Source of the DNA: Acidobacteriaceae bacterium | Lineage (GTDB): Bacteria > Acidobacteriota > Terriglobia > Terriglobales > Acidobacteriaceae | Length of the DNA: 64,000 nt | Assembly (NCBI GenBank): GCA_028283625.1 | Contig: JAPWKG010000008.1 | Span: 1-64,000, forward strand | Direction: 5' to 3' | Shown here: positions 39,542 to 52,909 of the stretch, one piece after another | How the letters are laid out: each line of letters opens with the position of its first letter | Position numbering within the stretch: position 1 is the stretch's first letter | Program-made: the position numbers and the translations under genes | Notes under the pieces: model-generated | Told to the model about the DNA's origin: nothing | Seen by the model: the letters and a program-made list of their open reading frames with translations, nothing else | The model's database searches: none

Positions 39542-40597
39542 ATGCGCAAAACTATCCGCACTTCAGCAGCAACACTTCTCGCTCTCTCGTTGGTTACCGT
39601 TGCCGGTTGCAAGAACGGCCCTGGTGACGGTGTCGTCGCTACCGTGAATGGTCATCCGATCATGCGCGCGGACATGGACAAGATTTACGATGCGCAGTTG
39701 GCGTCGAACCCTCAGCAGCAATCGCCATCGGCGGATCAGGCTGAGTCCTTGAAGCTCAACATTCTGCACGAGTTGGTCGTTGAGGAGATTGTGGAGCAGC
39801 GTGCTGCGAAGCTGAACCTGACCGCGACGGACGCCGAGGTGGATGCCAAGCTGACCGAGATGAAGGCTCCTTATACAGAGGAGCAGTTTCAGGCTCAGCT
39901 GAAGAGTTCGAATCGCACGCTGGATGACGTTCGCCACGACCTGCGACGCTCGCTTACGATCGACAAACTGTTGAACAAGGAGATCAACTCCAAGATCACC
40001 GTGACGGATGGTGACGTTGCGAACTATTACAGCGCACATAAATCGGAGTTCAACCTGATTGAAAACCAGTATCACCTGGCGCAGATTCAGGTCACTGGGC
40101 AGACAGCTACGCAGTCGGGGAACCTGCAAAACAACAAGGCCTCGAATGACGATGAAGCGAAACGCAAGATTCAGGCGTTGAAGAACCGTATTGATGCTGG
40201 AGAAGATTTTGGTTCGTTGGCGATGAACTTCTCCGAGCGTGCGGATACGGCTCCGAACGGTGGCGACATGGGGTTTGTGCCTGAGTCGCAGATGAAGGCC
40301 GATCCTGCGGTGTACGCCGCGATCATGAAGTTGAAGCCGGGTCAGACGACCGAGATTCTGCCGCTGCTCGACAGCAAGACGCTGCATCCCGTTGGGTATG
40401 CGATCTACAAGATGATTGCAAAGGAACCGGCTGGTCAGCGCGATGAGAATGACCCACGCGTGCAGCAGGCAATTCGTCAGCAACTGCATGACTCTCGTTC
40501 GCAGCTGCTGAAGACGGCTTACTTTGAAATGCTTCGCGACCAGACGAAGGTTGAAAACTTCCTGGCAGAGCAGATCTTCAAGGATACAGCCCACTAA
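39542..40597 (+). CDS. Lipoprotein peptidyl-prolyl isomerase (SurA/PrsA-like)
   Basis: 351 residues. A lipoprotein signal ends in VAGC (Cys at about 23), so the mature protein is anchored to a membrane and faces the periplasm. A SurA_N-type helical chaperone domain follows (VVATVNGHPIMRADMDKI, LNILHELVVEEIVEQRAAKL), then a parvulin domain at about 180-300 (YHLAQIQVTG, FGSLAMNFSERADTAPNGGD, GFVPESQM, LKPGQTTEILPLLD). It should help fold outer-membrane and secreted proteins; with several giant barrels nearby this is a fitting neighbour, although it appears monocistronic. Ends at a bidirectional terminator. Confidence 0.9.
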   Translation: MRKTIRTSAATLLALSLVTVAGCKNGPGDGVVATVNGHPIMRADMDKIYDAQLASNPQQQSPSADQAESLKLNILHELVVEEIVEQRAAKLNLTATDAEVDAKLTEMKAPYTEEQFQAQLKSSNRTLDDVRHDLRRSLTIDKLLNKEINSKITVTDGDVANYYSAHKSEFNLIENQYHLAQIQVTGQTATQSGNLQNNKASNDDEAKRKIQALKNRIDAGEDFGSLAMNFSERADTAPNGGDMGFVPESQMKADPAVYAAIMKLKPGQTTEILPLLDSKTLHPVGYAIYKMIAKEPAGQRDENDPRVQQAIRQQLHDSRSQLLKTAYFEMLRDQTKVENFLAEQIFKDTAH

Positions 40598-42846: not shown

Positions 42847-45800
42847 ATGAATCGCACAGCACTGTACCGCTCTTGGTGGACAGCAGCCACGCTCGCAGTT
42901 TGCAGTTTGTTTGCTTCCGTGTCGCCCGCTCAGGTAAATACCGCAGCCCGCCGCATTACGACCGCGATTAACGATGCGGACCGTGTTCCGCTTGCCAGCA
43001 CCGTTCGTCCGCAGCTGAAGTTTGCGACCGATCAGGGAGTTGTTTCGGGTAACACCGCCGCGCATCACATGATGCTGGTCCTTTCCCGCAGCCAGGACCG
43101 TCAGCAAGCGCTCACGCAGTACTTGAGCGATGTGCAGAACCCTGCCTCCCCCAGCTTCCACAAATGGCTTACGCCTGCGCAGTACGGCGCTTCTTTCGGC
43201 GCTGCGAGCGACGATATCGCCACCATTAGTGCATGGCTCCAGTCGCAGGGGTTCACGGTTGAGAAGAGCTCAGCCGCGGCGAACGTGATTCAGTTCTCCG
43301 GCAATGTTTCGCAGGTGCAAAAGGCCTTCAGCACGCAGATCCACAGTTATATGGTCGATGGTGTTCGCCACATGGCAAATGCCACTGCGCCTCAGGTTCC
43401 CCGCGCAATGGCTTCTGTCGTAAACGGTGTATTGGGGCTGGATGATTTTCATCCGAGTTCGACCGCCATTCAGGGGCCTAGCGCAAAATTCGATGCTAAC
43501 TCGAAGCGTATTCAGCCTGACTTCACGCTGTTTAGCAGCTCCGGAACGCCGTACCTGTACGTCGATCCAGCGGACGCTGCGACAATCTACGACGTCCCGA
43601 ATACGCTGCTCAATCCTGCATACACCGGTACTTCGTATGACGGAACGGGAGTGACGGTAGGTGTTGTAGGTGATTCCAACGTAGATCTGACGCCAGTAAC
43701 GATGTATCGCGAGGCTTTCCTCAACGAAACCTCCTCGACGTTGAATCTGCCGACGGTGATTGTTGATGGTGAAGATCCTGGCATCAACGGGGACGAGGTG
43801 GAAACCTTCCTCGATCTGGAAGTGCTGGGTGGTCTCGCTCCCAAGGCGAAGATCAATTACTACACCTCCAACGACAGTGATCTTTCCGCAGGCCTTTTCA
43901 ACGCGATCGCACGCGCGATCGACGACAATGCGGTCAGCGTATTGAGCATCAGCTACGGTGGTTGCGAAGCGAACCTCGGTTCGGATACCAACGCGTTTCT
44001 CAACGAAAAGTACGAACAGGCCGCCGCCCAGGGCATCACCGTTACCGTTTCCTCTGGTGATAGCGGCGCTGCCGGTTGCGATTCCTCTTCGTCCACTACC
44101 GCCCAGTATGGGCTTGCCGTCAACGGTCTTGGCTCCACTCCGTACAACGTTTCAGTCGGTGGCACGGACTACGATGTTCTGGGAACGGCCTTCACCAGCT
44201 ATGTGAAGGACTCGCAGGGTGGAAGCAGCTACAGCGGTGTCTTTCCGTATTGGCTGACCGCGCTCTCGTATATTCCGGAGCGCCCGTGGAATGACTCCAC
44301 CTCCAACAACGGGCTGCTGGCCAGCAACACCGCGCTCAGCAGCAGTGGAACGACCAACATCATCGGTGGCGGTGGGGGTGTGAGTATCCTCTACGACAAG
44401 CCGGCCTTTCAGAGCAGCCTGACGCCTTCCGATGGCAAGCGTGATGTGCCGGACGTATCCTTCCTCGCTGGCAATGGTTTGTACGGTGCGGTATGGCTCA
44501 TCTGCGGTTCCGGATCGCTCTATCTAGGGCCGGACTGCCAGATGTCGGACAACAACTTCACCTCCACATCAACCTTCTCGGGTGCTGGTGGAACTTCGGC
44601 TGCAACGCCTGCTTTTGCTGCGATGCTTGCGCTGGTCGTCGAAGCGACCGGCTCGCGTCTCGGTCAAGCCAACAACGTTCTGTATCAGCTGGCCGCCACG
44701 AAGTACAGCACCGTCTTTCATGACGTTGTGAACGGCAATAATGCGGTTGTCTGCACGGCTGGCACGACGAACTGTGGTTCCAACGGCTTTACAACTGGCT
44801 TTGACACCGCAACCGGCTATGACACCGCTTCCGGTCTGGGCAGCGTTGATGCTGCCAAGATGCTGCAGAACTGGAGCAGCGTGGCGATGGGAGGAACGGG
44901 GACCACGCTGCAGATCAATGGCGCAACCTCGCCGGTGAGCGTAACGCACGGCACCAGCCTGGCTTTCAACGTCAACGTTGCACCTTCGACGGCAACCGGT
45001 GTAGCTGCACTCGTCACCACGCAGAGCGTTGCCACCGGAACAGCGAGCAACAATGGACAGCTTACGATTCCGCTGACCAGCGGCGTTGGAAGCCTGAATT
45101 ACAACGGTCTTCCCGGTGGTTCGTATACCGTGTATGCGCGATACGCCGGCGACGCAAGCAATGCCTCGAGCAGCTCGACGCCCATCAGCGTAAACATTGC
45201 CGCAGAGAATAGCTCGACCGATCTCTGGCTTAATGTCTACGACCCTTCTGGAGCTACAATCTCAGGTCTGCAAAGCATTCCATACGGTTCGTACATCTTT
45301 GCGGAAACGACCGTGTATGGAACTGCAGAGGGTTATACCGACTCACTCGGCCTGGCAACTGGAAGCTTCACCCTCAAGGACAATGGTTCGACGCTGGGTA
45401 CGGCAGCGATGACCAGCGGCAACCTGGCCTCTTTCCCGAGCATCACGGCAGGGGTATATCCCTATGCTGTGGGTACGCATAAGCTTGTGGCGGCCTATCC
45501 GGGTGACGTCAGCTATAAGGCGAACACCAGCAACGAAGTGGATTTCACTGTTGTCAAGGGTGTAACTACGTCCTCGGTCAACCCAGCGAGCACCACCATA
45601 CGCTCAACGGCGTCGGATCAGGTCACGGTTGAGATTGAAACAAACAGCCTTGCCCTTGCTCCTACCGGAACCATCACGCTTACCGCAGCCAATGGAACGA
45701 CGCTGGGTACTACGAGCAGTCTGACCTCTGGTGAACTCAACTCGGGTGCGGCGATTGCTTACGCTACCTTTACGGTGCAGGGAAGCCAGCTGTCTCCGGG

Positions 45801-46773
45801 CTCAAACCTGCTTACCGCCGTGTACACCGGCGACGGCAACTACCAGGGGACCCAGAGCTCGGCAACGGTAACGCTGCAGCAGGCCGACTTTACGCTGAAA
45901 GCGAATGCGCTTTCGCTGACTGCGGGCAGCACCACCGGAAACACCACGACGATTACTGCGGCCCCTGAGAACGGTTTTGCAGGCATCGTGAACCTGAGCT
46001 GCGCGGTTACCACGACACCCTCAAACGCGACCAGCCCGATCACCTGCGCTGTTCCGTCCACGCTCAACATTACCGGCACGACGTCTGCTACGGGAACCAT
46101 GACCATTGGTTCAACATCCTCAACCACCGGTGGAAGCTATACCGTGACGTTGAGCGGTGTCGATGCTTCCACAGGGAAGGTAACCGCAACAACAACAGCG
46201 GAGGTCACGGTCAACGGAGCCACCGGCATTACGCTGAGCAGCACCGGTGGTATCAGTGTGGTTGCCGGCGCAACCACCGGCAACGCCGCAACTATCACCG
46301 TAACGCCGAGCGGTTCGTTCACGGGTACGGTGAGTCTTGCCTGCTCCTTGAGCAGCTCGCCTTCCGGTGCCGTTGACCCGATCGGATGCGCGTTGTCACC
46401 CGCATCGGTTTCGATCACGGGCACCAGCGCCGCTACCTCGACCCTCACGGTCAGTTCCACAGCGCGCACCACCAGCGCCCTGCGCAGCACGCACGAACTC
46501 GGTCGCGGTATCGGTGGCACCCTGCTCGCCTTCGGTATCTTCCTTCTGCTTCCTGCACGTCGTCGCCGTGATCTTCGCGCAATGGCTGCGGTTGTTCTGC
46601 TGATTTCTCTCGGAACCCTGACCGGTTGCGGCGGGAACAGCACAACCACAAGTGGAGGAGGAGGCAATACCACCTCAACCGGTACTACCGCGGGAACCTA
46701 TGTTCTCAAGGTGACGGCAACCGCATCAGGTGTAACGGCGCAGACGACAACCGTCAATGTAACGGTCAACTAA
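42847..46773 (+). CDS. Sedolisin (S53) peptidase with Ig-like repeats and C-terminal anchor-like tail
   Basis: 1308 residues. A signal peptide (TAATLAVCSLFASVSPAQ) leads to a pro-kumamolisin activation domain (about 40-200; NPASPSFHKWLTPAQYGASF) and the S53 catalytic domain with Glu319 and Asp323 (VETFLDLEVLGG), SGDSGAAGCD, and nucleophile Ser584 (GAGGTSAATPAFAAM). The calcium-site end YDTASGLGSVDAAKM is intact, so the enzyme should be an active acid-tolerant serine-carboxyl endopeptidase. Three Ig-like/bacterial big-domain repeats and two BACON-like repeats follow (about 690-1210). The tail from 1218 has a hydrophobic helix, RRRR at 1238-1241, a second helix, lipobox-like LTGC (Cys1261) and a short Thr-rich strand segment ending TVNVTVN, shared with the next gene. 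Confidence 0.94.
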   Translation: MNRTALYRSWWTAATLAVCSLFASVSPAQVNTAARRITTAINDADRVPLASTVRPQLKFATDQGVVSGNTAAHHMMLVLSRSQDRQQALTQYLSDVQNPASPSFHKWLTPAQYGASFGAASDDIATISAWLQSQGFTVEKSSAAANVIQFSGNVSQVQKAFSTQIHSYMVDGVRHMANATAPQVPRAMASVVNGVLGLDDFHPSSTAIQGPSAKFDANSKRIQPDFTLFSSSGTPYLYVDPADAATIYDVPNTLLNPAYTGTSYDGTGVTVGVVGDSNVDLTPVTMYREAFLNETSSTLNLPTVIVDGEDPGINGDEVETFLDLEVLGGLAPKAKINYYTSNDSDLSAGLFNAIARAIDDNAVSVLSISYGGCEANLGSDTNAFLNEKYEQAAAQGITVTVSSGDSGAAGCDSSSSTTAQYGLAVNGLGSTPYNVSVGGTDYDVLGTAFTSYVKDSQGGSSYSGVFPYWLTALSYIPERPWNDSTSNNGLLASNTALSSSGTTNIIGGGGGVSILYDKPAFQSSLTPSDGKRDVPDVSFLAGNGLYGAVWLICGSGSLYLGPDCQMSDNNFTSTSTFSGAGGTSAATPAFAAMLALVVEATGSRLGQANNVLYQLAATKYSTVFHDVVNGNNAVVCTAGTTNCGSNGFTTGFDTATGYDTASGLGSVDAAKMLQNWSSVAMGGTGTTLQINGATSPVSVTHGTSLAFNVNVAPSTATGVAALVTTQSVATGTASNNGQLTIPLTSGVGSLNYNGLPGGSYTVYARYAGDASNASSSSTPISVNIAAENSSTDLWLNVYDPSGATISGLQSIPYGSYIFAETTVYGTAEGYTDSLGLATGSFTLKDNGSTLGTAAMTSGNLASFPSITAGVYPYAVGTHKLVAAYPGDVSYKANTSNEVDFTVVKGVTTSSVNPASTTIRSTASDQVTVEIETNSLALAPTGTITLTAANGTTLGTTSSLTSGELNSGAAIAYATFTVQGSQLSPGSNLLTAVYTGDGNYQGTQSSATVTLQQADFTLKANALSLTAGSTTGNTTTITAAPENGFAGIVNLSCAVTTTPSNATSPITCAVPSTLNITGTTSATGTMTIGSTSSTTGGSYTVTLSGVDASTGKVTATTTAEVTVNGATGITLSSTGGISVVAGATTGNAATITVTPSGSFTGTVSLACSLSSSPSGAVDPIGCALSPASVSITGTSAATSTLTVSSTARTTSALRSTHELGRGIGGTLLAFGIFLLLPARRRRDLRAMAAVVLLISLGTLTGCGGNSTTTSGGGGNTTSTGTTAGTYVLKVTATASGVTAQTTTVNVTVN
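46498..46773 (+). other. C-terminal helix-Arg-helix-LTGC-strand module of the sedolisin
   Basis: Codes for residues 1218-1308: GGTLLAFGIFLLLPA, RRRR, AAVVLLISLGTLTGC, a Gly/Ser/Thr linker and TTTVNVTVN. Taken alone, the second half looks like an internal lipoprotein signal peptide. The matching module of the next gene is at 49978-50235. Confidence 0.7.
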
Positions 46774-46836
46774 GTCTGCTCCAGGGCCAGCTTGTTTGCT
46801 TTCTTGCAGTTTCAACCGATTAACTCAGGAGGCTGT

Positions 46837-49800
46837 ATGTTTCTTTGTTCGTCCCGTGGCGCAAAAATGATCGCGCTGCTGTCCTCGGTATTCTCGGGGT
46901 TTGCTGTTGCTCAAAAGCCGGTGCATGTGATGCCGGTCAAAGAGGCGGTTGTACCGGCGGCGCTGGCCAAGTATCAAACTCCAGCGCAGCGCAGCCTTAT
47001 TCCGTTCCTGAAAGCGCATCCCCTTAAGGCGCTCAACTCCAGCTCGCTGCATACGCAGGACGCAACGAGCTATGTCGCAACGCCGAAGTTTGGCGGTTAT
47101 GTCAATGCGCCGATGTATGACGCGCGCACCACGGCGTCCCTGGCAACAGGGACGTTCAACAACGGCGTTACGGTTGAACTGACCGGTGACTTCAACAAGG
47201 ATGGCAAGCAGGACATCGCAACGCTGCAGCAGGACGGCACCATGAACATCCTGCTGCACGACTCGGCCAACGGTCTCGTTGCTCCGGTCAGCTACTACAA
47301 CCCAAACTATGCCAGCTCCAGCGTCGATACCGCGTACGCGGTGGATGTAAACAATGACGGCTATTTGGATATTGTGGCGTTTGATGACAACAACGACACA
47401 ATGATTACCTGGCTCAACCTGCAGAATGGGACCTTCAACGCAGCGGTGACGAGCAATATCGACACCAGTATTGGTTATCCCGACGATGTGACGGTTGCCG
47501 ATATCAACGGCGACGGTAAGCCGGATCTTATCTATGCCATGTCGGCGTTCGTCTCACGCAGCAAAGCCAACATCTACGTTGAGACTATGCTGGGCAACGG
47601 GGACGGAACATTTAAGGCACCGTCTTCGCAGCAGACCCAGGTGTTTCCGGTAGCAGCTTCCGTGCAGCTTCCTCTGTACAGCCTTGCCATTGCCGACATT
47701 AACGGCGACGGTAAGCCGGATATTGCGTTGGCCATGGATGAACGGCTGACGCAGACTACGGGGCAGTATGTCGTGACCACGGCTCTCGGCAACGGAGACG
47801 GTACCTTCGGTACGCTTGGCCAGACAACCCCCATTAGCGCAGCTGCGGAATCGGCCAATAACCTCACGGTGCATTACGACAGCGCTGGCGTTAGTTTTGC
47901 CGATGTCACCGGTGATGGAAAGATCGATCTCATCTCCAGCATTAACGGTGTGCTTGAGGTTGCTCCGGGCAACGGGGACGGAACGTTTGGTGCCGCGGTT
48001 GGAAGCGACTTCAGCGCGATCGCCTCGCCTTCGCAACTCGTATTCGCGGATTTGAATGGCGATGGCAAGCAGGATGCTGTCGTGGGTGGCGGAACTCTTG
48101 CGGTCTACCTCGGCAACGGGGACGGAACGTTTGCGGCTCCGACCACAGCACAGCAGTACATCACGGATCCGACCGCCGAGCGCGGTCTTGTGGTTGGTGA
48201 CTTCAATAGCGACGGCGTGACCGATATTGCCTCGATGGGTGGCGATTACAAACAGGTCTCGCTCTTCTTCGGCAACGGCAAGGGACAGCTTGCGGGCGCT
48301 CCTGTGGTGACCTCCAACGCCGATCCGAACGGCATTAACTGGTTCGTGGAAGCAACGGGCAAGTACACCACCAGTGGTTATAGCGATGGCGTATTCATCC
48401 ATGCCACGACTTCGGACACGGAAATCGTGACCGGCGTGAACGATGGCAAGGGTGGGTTCAATTTTGTAACGGCACTTTCGGGTGGTATCCCCTCTGACTT
48501 TGAGTACATTCAGCCTGTTCATGCCGATTTGAACGGCGACGGTAAAGAGGATCTGGTGTTGACCGGAACAGCGGGTAGCGTCACCGTCGCTCTTTCCAAC
48601 GGCGATGGTACCTTCAGCTCGCCAGTGTCCATCGGTCTGCCGACACAGGCTTGCCCGATGTACTACGCTGCAGCTGGTGATGTGAACGGCGACGGCAACG
48701 TTGACCTGATCATCCCTTACGGTGGCGATATCGCCTGCAATTCTGCAGGTAATGGCGCTTCGGGATACTATGTCGCGCTTGGTAAAGGCGATGGTACCTT
48801 TGCGTCTCCGGTGTTCACCGCTTCGGGAACCGAACTCTACAGTGCGACGCTTGCGGACATCAACAACGACGGCAAGCTTGATCTCGTCCTTGACGATGCT
48901 CCGTTTGCAAGCGGCTCCGGCTACAACGTTGCTGTTGCTCTTGGCAACGGCGACGGCACCTTTGCCGAGAGCACACAGGTCATCTCCAACTATCTGGTCA
49001 GCAACGTTGCTGTAGGCGATATCAACGGTGATGGCAAGGCTGATCTCGTACTCAGCTCGGAAGAGGTGCAGGATAACGACGTTTCCACGGGCGGCATTCT
49101 GCTGCTCACCGGCAACGGCGACGGCACCTTCAATTCCTCGTCACAGATTGCTACCGGCAACTTCTTCTTCGGGTTGCAGCTTGCGGACATGAACAACGAT
49201 GGCAATCAGGACATCGTTGCTACGCTGTACAGCACCAACGGCCAGCCGAAGAACTACTATGGCATGGTTACGCTGCTGGGTCTTGGCAACGGTCAGTTCT
49301 CCTCTCCGGTTAACTCGCTGGAGAGCCTCGATGGCCAAACTCCGATGGTGGGTAACTTCTACGGAGACAATGCTCTGGATGTGATGACGTCGAGCGGTTA
49401 TGGTCCGGCTCTCTTCATCGGCCAGGGGTCTTCGTCGCTGTCGCTGGCGGCCTCCGCATCGGAGGCTTCCTTTGGAAGCTCCGAGGTGTTGACTGCAACC
49501 CTGAGCACGTCGATGACCGGCCGCCCTACGGCTACCGGCTCGGTGAACTTCTACGATGGCAGCACGCTGCTCGGAACCGGCGATCTGGCCAACGGTACTG
49601 CAACCCTCACCACGGCTTCGCTGGCTGTCGGTTCGCATAGTGTGACCGCGGTCTACAGCGGTGACACGAACTTCAACCCTGCGAAGGCTTCTGCGGTAGC
49701 GATCACCATCGATGCTCTGACGCCTGCGTTCACGCTGGCCGGTACACCGGCAACGTTGACGCTGAGCAGCGGCAACAACGGTGTTGTCTCGTTGAGCCTT

Positions 49801-50235
49801 GCGGCGAATGCGAGCTTCAGCGGCGCTGTAACGCTCAGCTGCACCGGCGCGCCAGCCAACGGCACCTGCACCATCAACCCGGGTACCGTGACCCTTTCCG
49901 CAGGCGGAACGACGACCGCAACACTGGTCATTGGAACGACGACGGCAAAGGCGGAGTTGCATCGCAGCTCCAACCCGTGGGAGACCACAGGCGCAGTCGC
50001 AACGCTCGCCACTCTTTGCGGAGTCTTCTTCGGACGCCGTAAGCGTGCGCGAATGTTTGCAGCGCTTGGTCTTGGTGTCATGCTTTCGCTGGGAACCCTC
50101 TTGACGGGTTGCAGCGACGGCAGCAGCGTCAAGAGCACTGGGAAGACGAGCTTCACCGTAACGGTGACGGCAACTCCTGCCAGTGGAAGTTCGGTAGCGG
50201 CGCAATCCACTACCGTAAACGTTACGGTGCAGTAG
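46837..50235 (+). CDS. FG-GAP/VCBS repeat exported protein with the same C-terminal tail
   Basis: 1132 residues. A short signal peptide (MIALLSSVFSGFAVAQ) precedes about thirteen FG-GAP repeats, each with a calcium-binding D-x-D-x-D-G loop (DFNKDGKQD, DVNNDGYLD, DINGDGKPD and others) and a paired GNGDGTF turn; these should fold into one or two beta-propellers resembling integrin alpha heads. An Ig-like domain (SVNFYDGSTLLG, SVTAVYSGDTNFNP) and a BACON-like domain follow. The tail from residue 1048 has a hydrophobic helix, RRKR at 1067-1070, a second helix, LTGC (Cys1092) and TTVNVTVQ. ATG 46837 has AGGAGG just upstream. It lies 64 bp after the sedolisin gene, so co-transcription is likely; role probably adhesion or polymer binding at the surface. 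Confidence 0.9.
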   Translation: MFLCSSRGAKMIALLSSVFSGFAVAQKPVHVMPVKEAVVPAALAKYQTPAQRSLIPFLKAHPLKALNSSSLHTQDATSYVATPKFGGYVNAPMYDARTTASLATGTFNNGVTVELTGDFNKDGKQDIATLQQDGTMNILLHDSANGLVAPVSYYNPNYASSSVDTAYAVDVNNDGYLDIVAFDDNNDTMITWLNLQNGTFNAAVTSNIDTSIGYPDDVTVADINGDGKPDLIYAMSAFVSRSKANIYVETMLGNGDGTFKAPSSQQTQVFPVAASVQLPLYSLAIADINGDGKPDIALAMDERLTQTTGQYVVTTALGNGDGTFGTLGQTTPISAAAESANNLTVHYDSAGVSFADVTGDGKIDLISSINGVLEVAPGNGDGTFGAAVGSDFSAIASPSQLVFADLNGDGKQDAVVGGGTLAVYLGNGDGTFAAPTTAQQYITDPTAERGLVVGDFNSDGVTDIASMGGDYKQVSLFFGNGKGQLAGAPVVTSNADPNGINWFVEATGKYTTSGYSDGVFIHATTSDTEIVTGVNDGKGGFNFVTALSGGIPSDFEYIQPVHADLNGDGKEDLVLTGTAGSVTVALSNGDGTFSSPVSIGLPTQACPMYYAAAGDVNGDGNVDLIIPYGGDIACNSAGNGASGYYVALGKGDGTFASPVFTASGTELYSATLADINNDGKLDLVLDDAPFASGSGYNVAVALGNGDGTFAESTQVISNYLVSNVAVGDINGDGKADLVLSSEEVQDNDVSTGGILLLTGNGDGTFNSSSQIATGNFFFGLQLADMNNDGNQDIVATLYSTNGQPKNYYGMVTLLGLGNGQFSSPVNSLESLDGQTPMVGNFYGDNALDVMTSSGYGPALFIGQGSSSLSLAASASEASFGSSEVLTATLSTSMTGRPTATGSVNFYDGSTLLGTGDLANGTATLTTASLAVGSHSVTAVYSGDTNFNPAKASAVAITIDALTPAFTLAGTPATLTLSSGNNGVVSLSLAANASFSGAVTLSCTGAPANGTCTINPGTVTLSAGGTTTATLVIGTTTAKAELHRSSNPWETTGAVATLATLCGVFFGRRKRARMFAALGLGVMLSLGTLLTGCSDGSSVKSTGKTSFTVTVTATPASGSSVAAQSTTVNVTVQ
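49978..50235 (+). other. C-terminal helix-Arg-helix-LTGC-strand module of the FG-GAP protein
   Basis: Codes for residues 1048-1132 and matches the sedolisin tail in order and spacing: hydrophobic segment, RRKR, helix ending SLGTLLTGC, Ser/Gly/Thr linker, then strands ending STTVNVTVQ. The GTL(L)TGC and TTVNVTV parts are nearly identical in the two proteins. Confidence 0.7.
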
Positions 50236-50364: not shown

Positions 50365-51684
50365 TTAGTTTGTTTCGCGGATCGTTTCCAGCAGCTCATT
50401 CAGTTCTGCTGGCAGCGGTGCGCGCAGAGTCAGTTCCTCTCCGTTGCGCGGATGCCCAAGGTCGAGCTCGGCGGCGTGCAGGAAGTTACGATTAGGCTCG
50501 ATCGTCGGCAGAGCCGGGTTGGCGGGCTTCAGGGCATGTGGCGCGCCATAGAGGGCGTCGCCAACTACAGGATGTCCCAGCGACTGCATGTGTACGCGGA
50601 TCTGGTGCGTGCGTCCTGTTTCGATATGCAGCTCGACAAACGTAAACAGCCCGTAGCCGGAACGGATTCGTTCCAGTACGCGATAGTTCGTGAGCGCATT
50701 GCGGCCGTTGGAGCGGCGTGTGGTCATCCGGGTGCGGCGATGCAGGTCGCGTGCAATCGGCAGGTCGATGTGCCCTTCGTCTTCCCGCACATGGCCGTGG
50801 ACCAGTGCAAGGTAGATCTTGCGTAGCGAGCGGGAAGAGAACATCTCGGACAAGCGCCGATGGGTGGCATCGTTTTTGGCAACCAGAATGAGGCCGCTGG
50901 TTTCTTTATCCAGCCGGTGCACGATGCCCGGTCGTACGGCGTCGCCGGAGTTGGCCAGACCGTGGCCGAAGTGGAAGAGCAGTGCGCTGACTAGCGTGCC
51001 GCGGTTATGCTCTGCCGAGCCTGCGCCGGGGTGCACGGTCATGCCTGCTGGTTTGTCGATCACGGCCAGGTCATCGTCTTCGTACACGATTTGCAGTGGA
51101 ATGTTTTCCGGTTCAGCGCGCAGCGGCTCGCGATGCGGTTCACCTTCAATCTCGATGACCTCTCCGCCCTTGAGTTTGGTTTTGCCCTTGGCCACCACGC
51201 CGTTCAGCTGAACCTGTCCGTGGTCGCACAGAGATTGAACGCGCGCGCGGGAGACATCCGGTAGAGCCTTCGCCAGATACGCATCCAGTCGCATCGAGGC
51301 TGCTTCCGCAGGCGCCGTGATGGTGCGAATTCCGTCTTCCACCTCGAGATCTTCGAGGGCGACGATCGAAGGCCGTTCCGGTTCCAGCCGCTTCAGGCCT
51401 TCGTAGCGAGGCTGTATGTCCTGCTGGATCTCGTTGCGGGTGCCAATCGCGTTGGAGATGATCAGGTAGGGGTTGGAGGGATCGACCGGAGCGTTCAGCT
51501 CGGCCATCATCTCTTCCACGTCGTAATAATCCTCTTCGGAGGAGGTATCTTCCGGCTCCTCGGGGAAGGGGTTTTCTTCGGCGCGGCGTGCCTTTTCTTC
51601 CTCTACCTCGGTGCGGATGCGGCGGTACTCTGATTTGACGGATTGACGTCGTTTGCCCTTGGGCAACATGTTTTTGCTAGGCAT
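50365..51684 (-). CDS. rluD: RluD-family 23S rRNA pseudouridine synthase
   Basis: 439 residues. About 110 N-terminal residues are basic then strongly acidic (KGKRRQSVKSEYRR, EEEKARRAEENPFPEEPEDT), not part of the usual enzyme. An S4 RNA-binding domain follows (MRLDAYLAKALPDVSRARVQ) and then the catalytic domain with the RluA/RluD signature RPGIVHRLDKETSGLILVAK, in which the Asp of HRLDKETSG attacks uridine, and HIETGRTHQIRVHMQSLGHP. It modifies uridines in helix 69 or similar sites of 23S rRNA. ATG 51684 overlaps the stop of the upstream Lgt-like gene by 8 bases. A much longer frame exists but lies inside that gene. Member of the family with high confidence; exact target less so. Confidence 0.9.
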   Translation of the reverse strand: MPSKNMLPKGKRRQSVKSEYRRIRTEVEEEKARRAEENPFPEEPEDTSSEEDYYDVEEMMAELNAPVDPSNPYLIISNAIGTRNEIQQDIQPRYEGLKRLEPERPSIVALEDLEVEDGIRTITAPAEAASMRLDAYLAKALPDVSRARVQSLCDHGQVQLNGVVAKGKTKLKGGEVIEIEGEPHREPLRAEPENIPLQIVYEDDDLAVIDKPAGMTVHPGAGSAEHNRGTLVSALLFHFGHGLANSGDAVRPGIVHRLDKETSGLILVAKNDATHRRLSEMFSSRSLRKIYLALVHGHVREDEGHIDLPIARDLHRRTRMTTRRSNGRNALTNYRVLERIRSGYGLFTFVELHIETGRTHQIRVHMQSLGHPVVGDALYGAPHALKPANPALPTIEPNRNFLHAAELDLGHPRNGEELTLRAPLPAELNELLETIRETN

Positions 51685-52486
51685 GGGAGTGAGTTGTCTC
51701 CTGGTACGATGCCGCGCTGAGCGTGCGCGGTGCATTGCCGGGCAAAAGCCACAGCAGGCTACCGGCCGCGATAGCGGCAAGGGCGGCGATCTGGGATGGG
51801 TCGAGCGGAAGGGATGCGTCCTGTGCCACGGGCTGGCGCAGCATATCCAGCAGGAAGCTGGCCAGGCCGCCGAAGAGGAAAGCGCGAGCGGCCAATGCAC
51901 CCGCGCGTAGCGATGTGTGGGCGGCGCCGCGGTAGAGCCAAAGGGTCAACAGCAGTGCCAGAGTGGCGGCAAAGAGCTGCACGGGCTGTGTTCGGCCCAG
52001 TACGGTGTCTCCGGGAGTAAGAATGCCCCAGGGTTTCGCGGTCGGCATCCCGGCCTCGGTCCCTTCAAAAAAGTGGCCGACCTGCAGGAAGACTGTCAGC
52101 AGAGCCATGCTGGGGGCCCAGGCATCGAAGCTGCGGCGGAGCGGCAGGCGCTTGGCTCGCAGGTAGAGCAGCGTTGCCAGCGCGGTGAGCAGAATTCCGG
52201 AGCCGGTCAGAGACGGCAGCGCCAGCACCAGCATCGGCGCCATGCGAAAGACCTTCCAGTTCTGAGCAATCAGCAGCGCCCGGGAGGCGACAAAGGCGGC
52301 GGCGACGGCGAAGATCCCGGCATCCCACAGCCGGTCGGCATCGAGCCCCAGCCTGCGTGCCGTGCGCTGCGAGAGCGTGAGGGCTGCCATCAGGCCTGCG
52401 GTGGCAAAGAGCGCAAATACAGGCAAGCGCACCGGGCCGAGGCCGATCGTTCCGGGAAGCGCCGTATTCAGGTGCGGTGCCAGCAT
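51677..52486 (-). CDS. Lgt-like membrane protein (prolipoprotein diacylglyceryl transferase family)
   Basis: 269 residues with about seven hydrophobic helices. The segment MPTAKPWGILTPGDTVLGRTQPVQLF matches the Lgt pattern P-T-x-x-P-W-G ... R-x-P-x-Q-L-Y, and the start (GPVRLPVFALFATAGLMAAL) and SRALLIAQNW fit the family. The central His of the usual R-H-P-x-Q-L-Y is replaced (RTQPVQL) and the strict G-G-R-x-G block is not obvious. Lgt attaches diacylglycerol to lipoprotein Cys in the inner membrane; this may be a diverged or second copy. ATG 52486 has GGAGAA upstream. Overlaps the start of the RluD gene, so the two are coupled. Confidence 0.7.
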   Translation of the reverse strand: MLAPHLNTALPGTIGLGPVRLPVFALFATAGLMAALTLSQRTARRLGLDADRLWDAGIFAVAAAFVASRALLIAQNWKVFRMAPMLVLALPSLTGSGILLTALATLLYLRAKRLPLRRSFDAWAPSMALLTVFLQVGHFFEGTEAGMPTAKPWGILTPGDTVLGRTQPVQLFAATLALLLTLWLYRGAAHTSLRAGALAARAFLFGGLASFLLDMLRQPVAQDASLPLDPSQIAALAAIAAGSLLWLLPGNAPRTLSAASYQETTHSHA

Positions 52487-52909
52487 GGGGTTCTCCGAGC
52501 GAATGGGCGACCGTACCGTTGCGGAAAAAGAGTTGTCCTCACAGCGTTCCACTTGTACCGGGCGATACGCCGCAAGTTACTTATCAATAATAATTTGAGG
52601 AACGTATCCCGCGAAACCGGGCAGGGGTGAGGCGAGTTAGAAAGACCGACCCACTGGGCCGTGCAGCGAAGCGCCGGTGAACCCGTCCTAAGACGGTGGG
52701 ATCCAACCGTGGTTCTTTAGGCTTTCCGGACTGGCGGACGGCACACCGAACCAAGCATACGAGTCAGACCCCTGTTCGATGAATGTTGGTTCAACCGACG
52801 TGGATCGCCGACACCTGCTTTGCAGGCCGGTCTCTAGATATTGGATGCTAGTGCCTTGTTGGCAAATTGGCAAACGCGCCCTATCCGGTACACTCATATC
52901 TGCTAAATC
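52487..52909. other. Divergent intergenic region, Lgt-like / scpB
   Basis: About 420 bp with no plausible protein. It contains the structured segment 52643-52833 (listed separately), an AT-rich stretch near 52581-52596 that could be a promoter, and the scpB upstream region. Confidence 0.55.
52643..52833. ncRNA. Possible structured RNA element
   Basis: A 191-nt segment bounded by AGACCG (52643-52648) and CGGTCT (52828-52833), which can close it. Inside are hairpins CCGTC-CTAA-GACGG (52683-52696), GAACCAA / TTGGTTC (52748-52754, 52786-52792) enclosing CAG-ACCC-CTG, and CCTGC-TTT-GCAGG (52814-52826). GGTTC at 52788 could alternatively pair with GTGAACC at 52677-52683, giving two exclusive folds. 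Length resembles 6S RNA but I could not match it to 6S, SRP, RNase P, tmRNA or a cobalamin riboswitch. Strand undetermined. Confidence 0.35.

Follow-up and report, generated by a model that had tools for sequence, protein, structure and literature searches.

The described systems closest to the element reported here are the bacterial lipoprotein signal, served by Lgt, LspA and Lnt, and C-terminal sorting tags such as MYXO-CTERM and PEP-CTERM. The MYXO-CTERM tag is composed of a Cys, one helix and a terminal Arg cluster, and Lgt-like lipidation followed by a far-side cut by the myxosortase MrtX is proposed in PMC11980579. In PMC12636315, the lipoprotein pathway acts on a peptide product, but with an N-terminal signal. 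Here we analyze a window of 64,000 nucleotides from an Acidobacteriaceae bacterium (contig JAPWKG010000008.1, G000:C17:1-64000 in our genome set), whose genome assembly is 3.0 Mb in size and 84.8% complete. Two adjacent genes of this window, encoding a sedolisin and an FG-GAP protein, end in the same kind of tail, in which a hydrophobic helix, a basic loop and a second helix ending in a lipobox-like Cys precede a linker and two strands. The new result is that this tail is a lipoprotein-like hairpin; the sequences show that it interrupts a terminal immunoglobulin (Ig)-like domain at a single loop, the one joining strands 7 and 8. On balance, the best explanation is that the hairpin serves as an internal lipoprotein signal handled by ordinary Lgt and LspA.

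The tail shares with the lipoprotein signal a basic n-region, a core of about 18 residues, a lipobox-type Cys mostly followed by Gly or Ser, and a flexible tether. It differs in that it follows a stop-transfer helix, lies within a folded domain about 45 residues before the C-terminus, and occurs on proteins that apparently carry an N-terminal signal peptide as well. An Arg-rich cytoplasmic segment, a transmembrane (TM) helix, an invariant and probably lipidated Cys and a presence on exported proteins are common to the tail and the MYXO-CTERM/MrtX system (PMC11980579). However, in the tail the Arg residues precede the second helix (TM2), and beyond it come the Cys and then a portion of a domain; the tail has the ordinary lipoprotein orientation, near the opposite end of the protein. 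PEP-CTERM tags likewise contain a helix and then an Arg-rich cluster, but no PEP-CTERM model was among the NCBIfam matches and the cluster of the tail is internal. With the LPXTG model (TIGR01167) the FG-GAP tail reached 10.6 bits against a cut-off of 15.9, and the sedolisin tail was not listed. No GlyGly-CTERM model was found among the NCBIfam matches of the window proteins, rhombosortase not having been searched for.

Both tails match the NCBIfam model NF058595 (invert_tail, "lipo-invert putative C-terminal anchoring domain"), which has a curated cut-off of 37 bits. The tail segments scored 58.9 (sedolisin) and 38.6 bits (FG-GAP), and a six-frame search gave 58.3 and 38.7 bits, with matches that cover the model end to end (positions 1-113) and reach the last residue of both proteins. 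The FG-GAP tail lies barely above the cut-off, either as the C-terminal 131 amino acids alone or in the six-frame search; the full-length protein was not listed. Because both tails exceed the cut-off and their own genome contains many further matches, chance can be excluded for the two tails. They are genuine members of a family that NCBIfam catalogues and that no paper found in our literature searches explains; the literature searched made no mention of lipo-invert, invert_tail or NF058595. Judged by the model name, description line and matches of NF058595, the split-Ig anatomy and the place of the hairpin within the domain are added here.

A split Ig-like domain at the C-terminus

The clearest single case is the sedolisin (gene 1, 42847..46773; like all features of the two genes, on the forward strand), which translation and Pfam describe as a pro-kumamolisin with Big_3_5 Ig domains before the tail. 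An intact Ig-like repeat at 45886..46215, with nine strands and a 6-residue loop between strands 7 and 8, is followed by a copy that forms the split tail. This repeat was detected by the joined hidden Markov model (HMM) described below, which spans the junction (independent E-value, iE, 6.1e-9), and was modeled by AlphaFold2 (AF2). Strands 1-7 of the split copy lie at 46234..46470 (joined HMM positions 5-75 of 100; intact-only HMM positions 9-74 of 99; AF2 strands at residues 4-80). They are followed by the first helix (TM1, 46510..46554, read from sequence and modeled as AF2 helix 95-111), an RRRR loop (46558..46569) predicted to be cytoplasmic by the positive-inside rule and the loop charges of 78 tails, and TM2 (46579..46629), which ends in SLGTLTGC with the lipobox LTGC (Cys codon 46627-46629). 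A flexible Gly/Ser/Thr linker (46630..46683; AF2 residues 137-152, predicted local distance difference test, pLDDT, <50) leads to strands 8 and 9 (46684..46770; AF2 and joined HMM), which end in TTVNVTVN, 47 residues after the Cys.

The FG-GAP protein (gene 2, 46837..50235, with a Big_3_5 domain by Pfam and translation) shows the same order. Its first Ig part lies at 49723..49950 (joined HMM positions 1-75 of 100, iE 1e-18; intact-only HMM positions 1-74 of 99, iE 2.5e-11), and sequence inspection places TM1 at 49993..50034, an RRKRAR loop at 50035..50052 and TM2, ending in SLGTLLTGC, at 50053..50112 (Cys codon 50110-50112). The last two strands, at 50137..50232, are weak alone (joined HMM positions 73-100, iE 0.059; intact-only HMM positions 72-99, iE 0.0098); the protein ends in TTVNVTVQ, 40 residues after the Cys. 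The two tails are 35% identical in alignment. When the intact repeat of the sedolisin was aligned with its own tail after excision of the hairpin, the score was 233. The N part of the tail alone scored 190 (maximum of 1000 shuffles, 90), and the C part alone scored 54, a value reached by none of 1000 shuffles.

Further evidence comes from a set of 78 tails, consisting of the two window tails and 76 fetched loci; 75 pass a simple tail rule, three (L067, L081 and L118) were added by eye, and one false match of the rule (L116_1) was removed ahead of all counts. The consensus of the 75 tails is DFtltaspsslTvtAGqtatytltvtpvnGFtGtVsLSCsGLPagatCtFsPasvtpgtgtaTsTLTItT before TM1 and GTPaGTYTvTVTATSGslthsttvTLTVq after the Cys. 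An intact-only profile was built from 12 intact Ig copies (11 from other records and one from the sedolisin; 99 positions) and applied at iE<=0.01. It found the first part in 73 of the 78 tails and the last part in 42; both parts were found in 39, and the first part only in 34 more. In no tail did it align across the hairpin. Where both parts were found, the first ended at a median profile position of 73 (range 61-97) and the last started at a median of 70 (59-77).

A second profile of 100 positions was obtained by joining the first and last parts of tails end to end with the hairpin excised. Searched against 75 protein bodies trimmed of their tails, it identified 22 domains in 10 bodies, and 19 of these domains, in 9 proteins, span the junction by at least 15 positions on each side, compared with 7, 8 and 6 when the columns of the C part were permuted. 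The joined profile ran unbroken through 13 intact copies and broke near the junction in all ten tails aligned with it (L135-L142 and the two window tails), stopping at 73-78 and resuming at 57-73.

The AF2 models lead to the same arrangement. The intact repeat (12 aligned rows; pLDDT 86.1, predicted TM-score, pTM, 0.77) was modeled with nine strands, at residues 2-6, 9-11, 19-27, 33-43, 52-55, 59-63, 68-76, 83-93 and 99-109. The sedolisin tail (10 rows; pLDDT 78.3, pTM 0.60) was modeled with seven strands, at 4-9, 13-15, 24-32, 37-47, 57-61, 64-67 and 73-80, followed by helices at 95-111 and 114-135, a disordered linker and strands at 160-170 and 173-184, the latter with pLDDT 91-95. The predicted order of the nine strands is the same in the split and the intact domain, and comparison of the strand positions indicates that a 79-residue segment of the tail replaces the 6-residue loop between strands 7 and 8. 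No relative of the Ig domain was found in the PDB at E<=0.1.

In three tails of the same genome (L071-L073, on contigs C7, C10 and C2), 123-130 residues follow the Cys, yet the proteins again finish with two strands. This suggests that the domain, rather than a set spacing from the Cys, is the reason why the last strands are retained. The added stretch is Ig-like, by Pfam in L071 (Big_3_5 at 750-830 of 859) and by sequence in the other two. Intact domains of this type also occur apart from the hairpin: a Chloroflexi record (L143:1012-2460) contains five of them in tandem, in a frame that ends without a hairpin tail.

The membrane hairpin and its cysteine

The loops between the two helices are strongly basic, with 348 basic and 3 acidic residues over the 78 tails. 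Before the loop, the median length of the uncharged run is 19 residues; TM2 has a median core length of 18, counted from the last charge up to the Cys. TM2 is hydrophobic, and Gly (61), Ala (13) or Ser (4) precedes the Cys in 78/78 tails. The following position is Gly or Ser in 71 and Asp in none. The distance between the Cys and the C-terminus is 32-53 residues in 75 tails and 123-130 in three, unlike the N-terminal location of a type II signal. Among 934 other Cys residues of the same proteins, 384 have G/A/S at position -1 and 29 are in a strict lipobox ([LVIM][ASTVIG][GAS]C), compared with 78 and 44, respectively, of the 78 tail Cys residues.

Because these tails had been found with a model that contains the Cys, six genomes were searched with an alignment ending before TM2. 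Loci were read for 30 of the 45 matches, and all 30 have [GAS]C at the end of TM2, followed by strands; 11 of these loci are also in the set of 78, eight are rows of the query alignment and 19 are new. The other 15 matches include at least one, at 45961-46125 of the window, that is an intact repeat and not a tail. A Cys occupies 2.6% of the TM2 core positions. [GAS]C was likewise present in all 14 further tails examined among NF058595 matches from the families f76, f77 and f79. One of the 30 loci (L228) has Asp after the Cys; in Escherichia coli, Asp after the lipoprotein Cys is linked to retention in the inner membrane.

The two parts flanking the hairpin belong to one domain, which can fold only with both parts on one side of the membrane. 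It is therefore strongly implied that both ends of the hairpin are extracytoplasmic, with the basic loop in the cytoplasm and the Cys at the membrane's outer face, where Lgt works. The two Cys residues in the first part of the Ig domain are invariant in ten aligned rows and could form a disulphide within that part. A second Cys within 40 residues after the lipobox is present in only 5 of the 78 tails, so most C-terminal pieces, if cut off, would be held without a covalent bond.

Proposed processing of the tail and rival explanations

Under the internal-signal explanation, the N-terminal signal peptide would export the protein, TM1 would halt transfer with the Arg/Lys loop remaining in the cytoplasm, TM2 would act as an internal type II signal that returns the linker and the last two strands across the membrane, and the Ig domain would close outside. 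The topology strongly implies this course of export, stop, re-entry and closure. It is likely that Lgt then adds diacylglycerol to the tail Cys, and this would be done by the cell's ordinary pathway and not by a dedicated sortase. LspA may in turn cut before the Cys, a step on which we are nearly evenly divided. After such a cut, the last ~45 residues would be a lipopeptide, retained since its two strands complete the Ig fold, and the large protein would be held non-covalently by the lipid anchor; we infer that the product would be a two-chain protein held by the Ig fold. After an LspA cut the large chain would keep TM1, the loop and TM2, so a second cut before TM1 would be needed for it to reach the outer membrane. 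We put forward only tentatively that the tails define a large family of two-chain lipoproteins, in which LspA cuts inside a folded domain, the lipopeptide holds a giant chain by strand complementation alone and a further cut before TM1 would excise the hairpin.

The distribution of candidate enzymes argues for the general lipoprotein pathway over a special sortase, an undescribed enzyme being possible. Lgt is present in all 29 genomes tested, of which 16 are tail-bearing and 13 tail-less, that is, with no NF058595 match at E<=1e-10 among the best 40 candidates per genome. A second Lgt is not required, because five of six tail-bearing genomes of f76 and f77 have a single one. LspA is a single-copy gene in 26/26 genomes of the window's own family (f1), and a dedicated LspA was rejected on this basis. 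Dedicated enzymes of two other kinds were rejected because neither tracks the tails: exosortase (PF09721) was found in 10/16 tail-bearing and 4/13 tail-less genomes, and CPBP genes in all 29, at 2-8 copies and with no contrast between the two groups. Separate small genes for the C-terminal piece were also considered and set aside, as the candidates look broken or out of frame (L134, L181 and L183) or lie at contig ends (L179, L180 and L182). The L134 candidate (L134:5947-6177) is a 77-codon frame with a helix, LACAG, a linker and two strands, out of frame with the preceding gene; it may result from a frameshift or may be a small lipoprotein-like gene in its own right.

A divergent copy of Lgt is encoded in the window itself (51677-52552, reverse strand), 1.4 kb from the FG-GAP gene and adjoining an rluD-like gene, and is the sole Lgt match found in this incomplete genome. 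Its signature is LQVGHFFEGTEAG, with GR.GC in 15 of 20 fetched relatives, and a conserved Arg, which we take to be catalytic, is lost. The Arg is lost also from the rluD-adjacent Lgt of G130, G007, G036 and G179 and kept in that of G139; each of these five genomes holds another, normal-looking Lgt elsewhere. From these sequences, the rluD-adjacent lgt is apparently a dead ancestral copy kept beside its replacement.

The preliminary description of this locus compared the tail with PEP-, GlyGly- and MYXO-CTERM tags, and processing by a dedicated protease in the style of PEP-CTERM/exosortase, MYXO-CTERM/myxosortase or GlyGly-CTERM/rhombosortase would fit the resemblance of the helix and Arg cluster to such tags and the presence of exosortase in 10 and CPBP in 16 of the 16 tail-bearing genomes. 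We consider it very unlikely. Exosortase is missing from 6/16 tail-bearing genomes and present in 4/13 genomes without tails, CPBP offers no contrast (rhombosortase was not searched for), the order of elements differs, the cluster is internal with part of a conserved domain after it, and the aligned rows inspected show no invariant residue or short conserved motif before TM1. The likeness is thus not upheld; with regard to the co-occurring protease or transpeptidase genes that had been proposed as a check, neither exosortase nor CPBP tracks the tails. Cutting at the Arg cluster, also suggested there, is unsupported, as nothing speaks for or against it. The statement that no machinery has been characterized agrees with the literature searched, in which none is described.

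Two further explanations accept the hairpin as an anchor. If Lgt modified the Cys and the chain stayed whole, the product would be an inner-membrane protein held by two helices and a lipid; the Ig parts would remain covalently joined, neither a second cut nor strand exchange would be needed, and the conservation of hairpin and Cys together would be accounted for. We give this uncut form a modest chance, because G/A/S at position -1 in 78/78 tails is what a cleavable signal would show, an anchor of two helices gains little from a lipid, and one would expect to find sedolisins, which are acid proteases, and FG-GAP proteins beyond the outer membrane. It is unlikely that the Cys is structural or incidental and never lipidated: two helices and a basic turn would suffice for anchoring, and the split Ig domain accounts for the trailing strands without a lipid, but a small residue and Cys occurred in 30/30 loci found without that region, against the low frequency of Cys in the TM2 core.

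Several observations weigh against the internal lipoprotein signal or the split domain on which it is built. The strict lipobox is present in only 44/78 tails, and all 78 were collected with a model that includes the Cys. The intact-only profile misses the last part, which is short and weak alone, in 36/78 tails, including that of the sedolisin, and in 3 of the 39 two-part tails the first part runs beyond position 79 (to 87, 88 and 97). The breaks of the joined profile in the tails arise partly by construction, since the profile was joined by us and five of the ten tails (both window tails, L135, L140 and L141) were in its training set. That the last two strands pack against the first seven is itself inferred. 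At least two Lgt genes occur in 8/16 tail-bearing genomes and 1/13 tail-less ones, so that the window's own family may have a dedicated Lgt. Lipidation and cutting are predicted from sequence, the literature searched contains no earlier case of Lgt/LspA acting on an internal lipobox, and no motif for a second cut before TM1 was seen in the aligned rows.

Distribution, cargo and significance

In the window's own genome, NF058595 gave 28 matches at E<=1, 9 of them above the cut-off. By reading of the loci, 19 of the best 20 are C-terminal tails, and the other (L018) is an ordinary N-terminal lipoprotein signal. In a sample of the phylum, 44 of 247 genomes match at E<=1e-5, 30 of them above the cut-off. 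The 44 include 26/26 genomes of f1, the window's own among them, with 4-17 matches each, numbers that are lower bounds since the best 17 candidates per genome were scored. Of the 18 matching genomes from elsewhere, G216 alone matches the whole model and the others match partially. In a sample of the class, 49/101 genomes match at E<=1e-10 (17 of f1, 16 of f76, 15 of f77 and one of f79); f1, f76 and f77 are absent among the 20 listed of the 52 genomes without a match. None of 14 control genomes has a match above the cut-off, though every one of them gave weak matches at E<=1.

The preliminary description had recognized a common helix-Arg-helix-LTGC-strand module on both window proteins, and the translations and the NF058595 scores bear this out. 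The module recurs well beyond the two genes, on exported-looking proteins and with a lipobox-like end of TM2, and is catalogued as a putative anchoring domain, in line with the anchoring role that the description had named as one possibility. The two proteins had been called otherwise unrelated; this holds for their main domains (Pro-kuma_activ and FG-GAP in Pfam) but not throughout, as both also have Big_3_5 and the same split Ig domain. What had been taken for a separate trailing beta segment is in fact the last two strands of the Ig domain whose first seven strands precede the hairpin.

Cargo was classified by Pfam for 15 of 16 further loci of the same genome (L073 was left out) and the two window proteins. 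Among these 17 are four sedolisins (P0001, L059, L069 and L072), two FG-GAP proteins (P0002 and L070), six NHL/propeller proteins (L060 and L063-L067), an ASH/HYDIN-type protein (L058), a lamin-tail domain protein (L062) and three proteins with Big_3_5 matches only (L061, L068 and L071). Big_3_5 is present in every one except L058. Sedolisin relatives also gave 8 matches in 5 of the 13 tail-less genomes; the C-terminus is readable in three, which have no tail, and the other five run off the fetched stretch.

Tail-bearing proteins look extracytoplasmic by their sequences. A hydrophobic 12-mer occurs within the first 90 codons of 60/78 tail-bearing open reading frames (ORFs), compared with 64/1520 control windows, and at least some of the remaining 18 ORFs are cut at the 5' end or have an upstream extension. 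A further TM-like stretch between residue 120 and the tail is present in three of the 78 proteins. N-terminal signal peptides were read from sequence in both window genes, at ~42847-42933 in the sedolisin (MNRTALYRSWWTAATLAVCSLFASVSPAQ) and at ~46837-46914 in the FG-GAP protein. A clear signal peptide results if translation begins with the ATG at 46837, which is probably the start of the FG-GAP gene; the TTG listed as start of the ORF is probably not real. The window also contains a gene (39542-40597, forward strand) whose product looks like an ordinary lipoprotein with an N-terminal VAGC lipobox, perhaps a SurA/PrsA-like peptidyl-prolyl isomerase.

If the internal-signal explanation is true, the lipoprotein pathway can use a signal that is close to the C-terminus and embedded in a domain, positions at which, to our knowledge, predictors of N-terminal signal peptides do not look. 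A tail that was catalogued but unexplained becomes directly testable. Our observations suggest an unusual way of tethering proteins to the cell envelope, one that would account for the possible display of numerous large proteins, including sedolisins, FG-GAP proteins and NHL proteins, by acidobacteria of this class.

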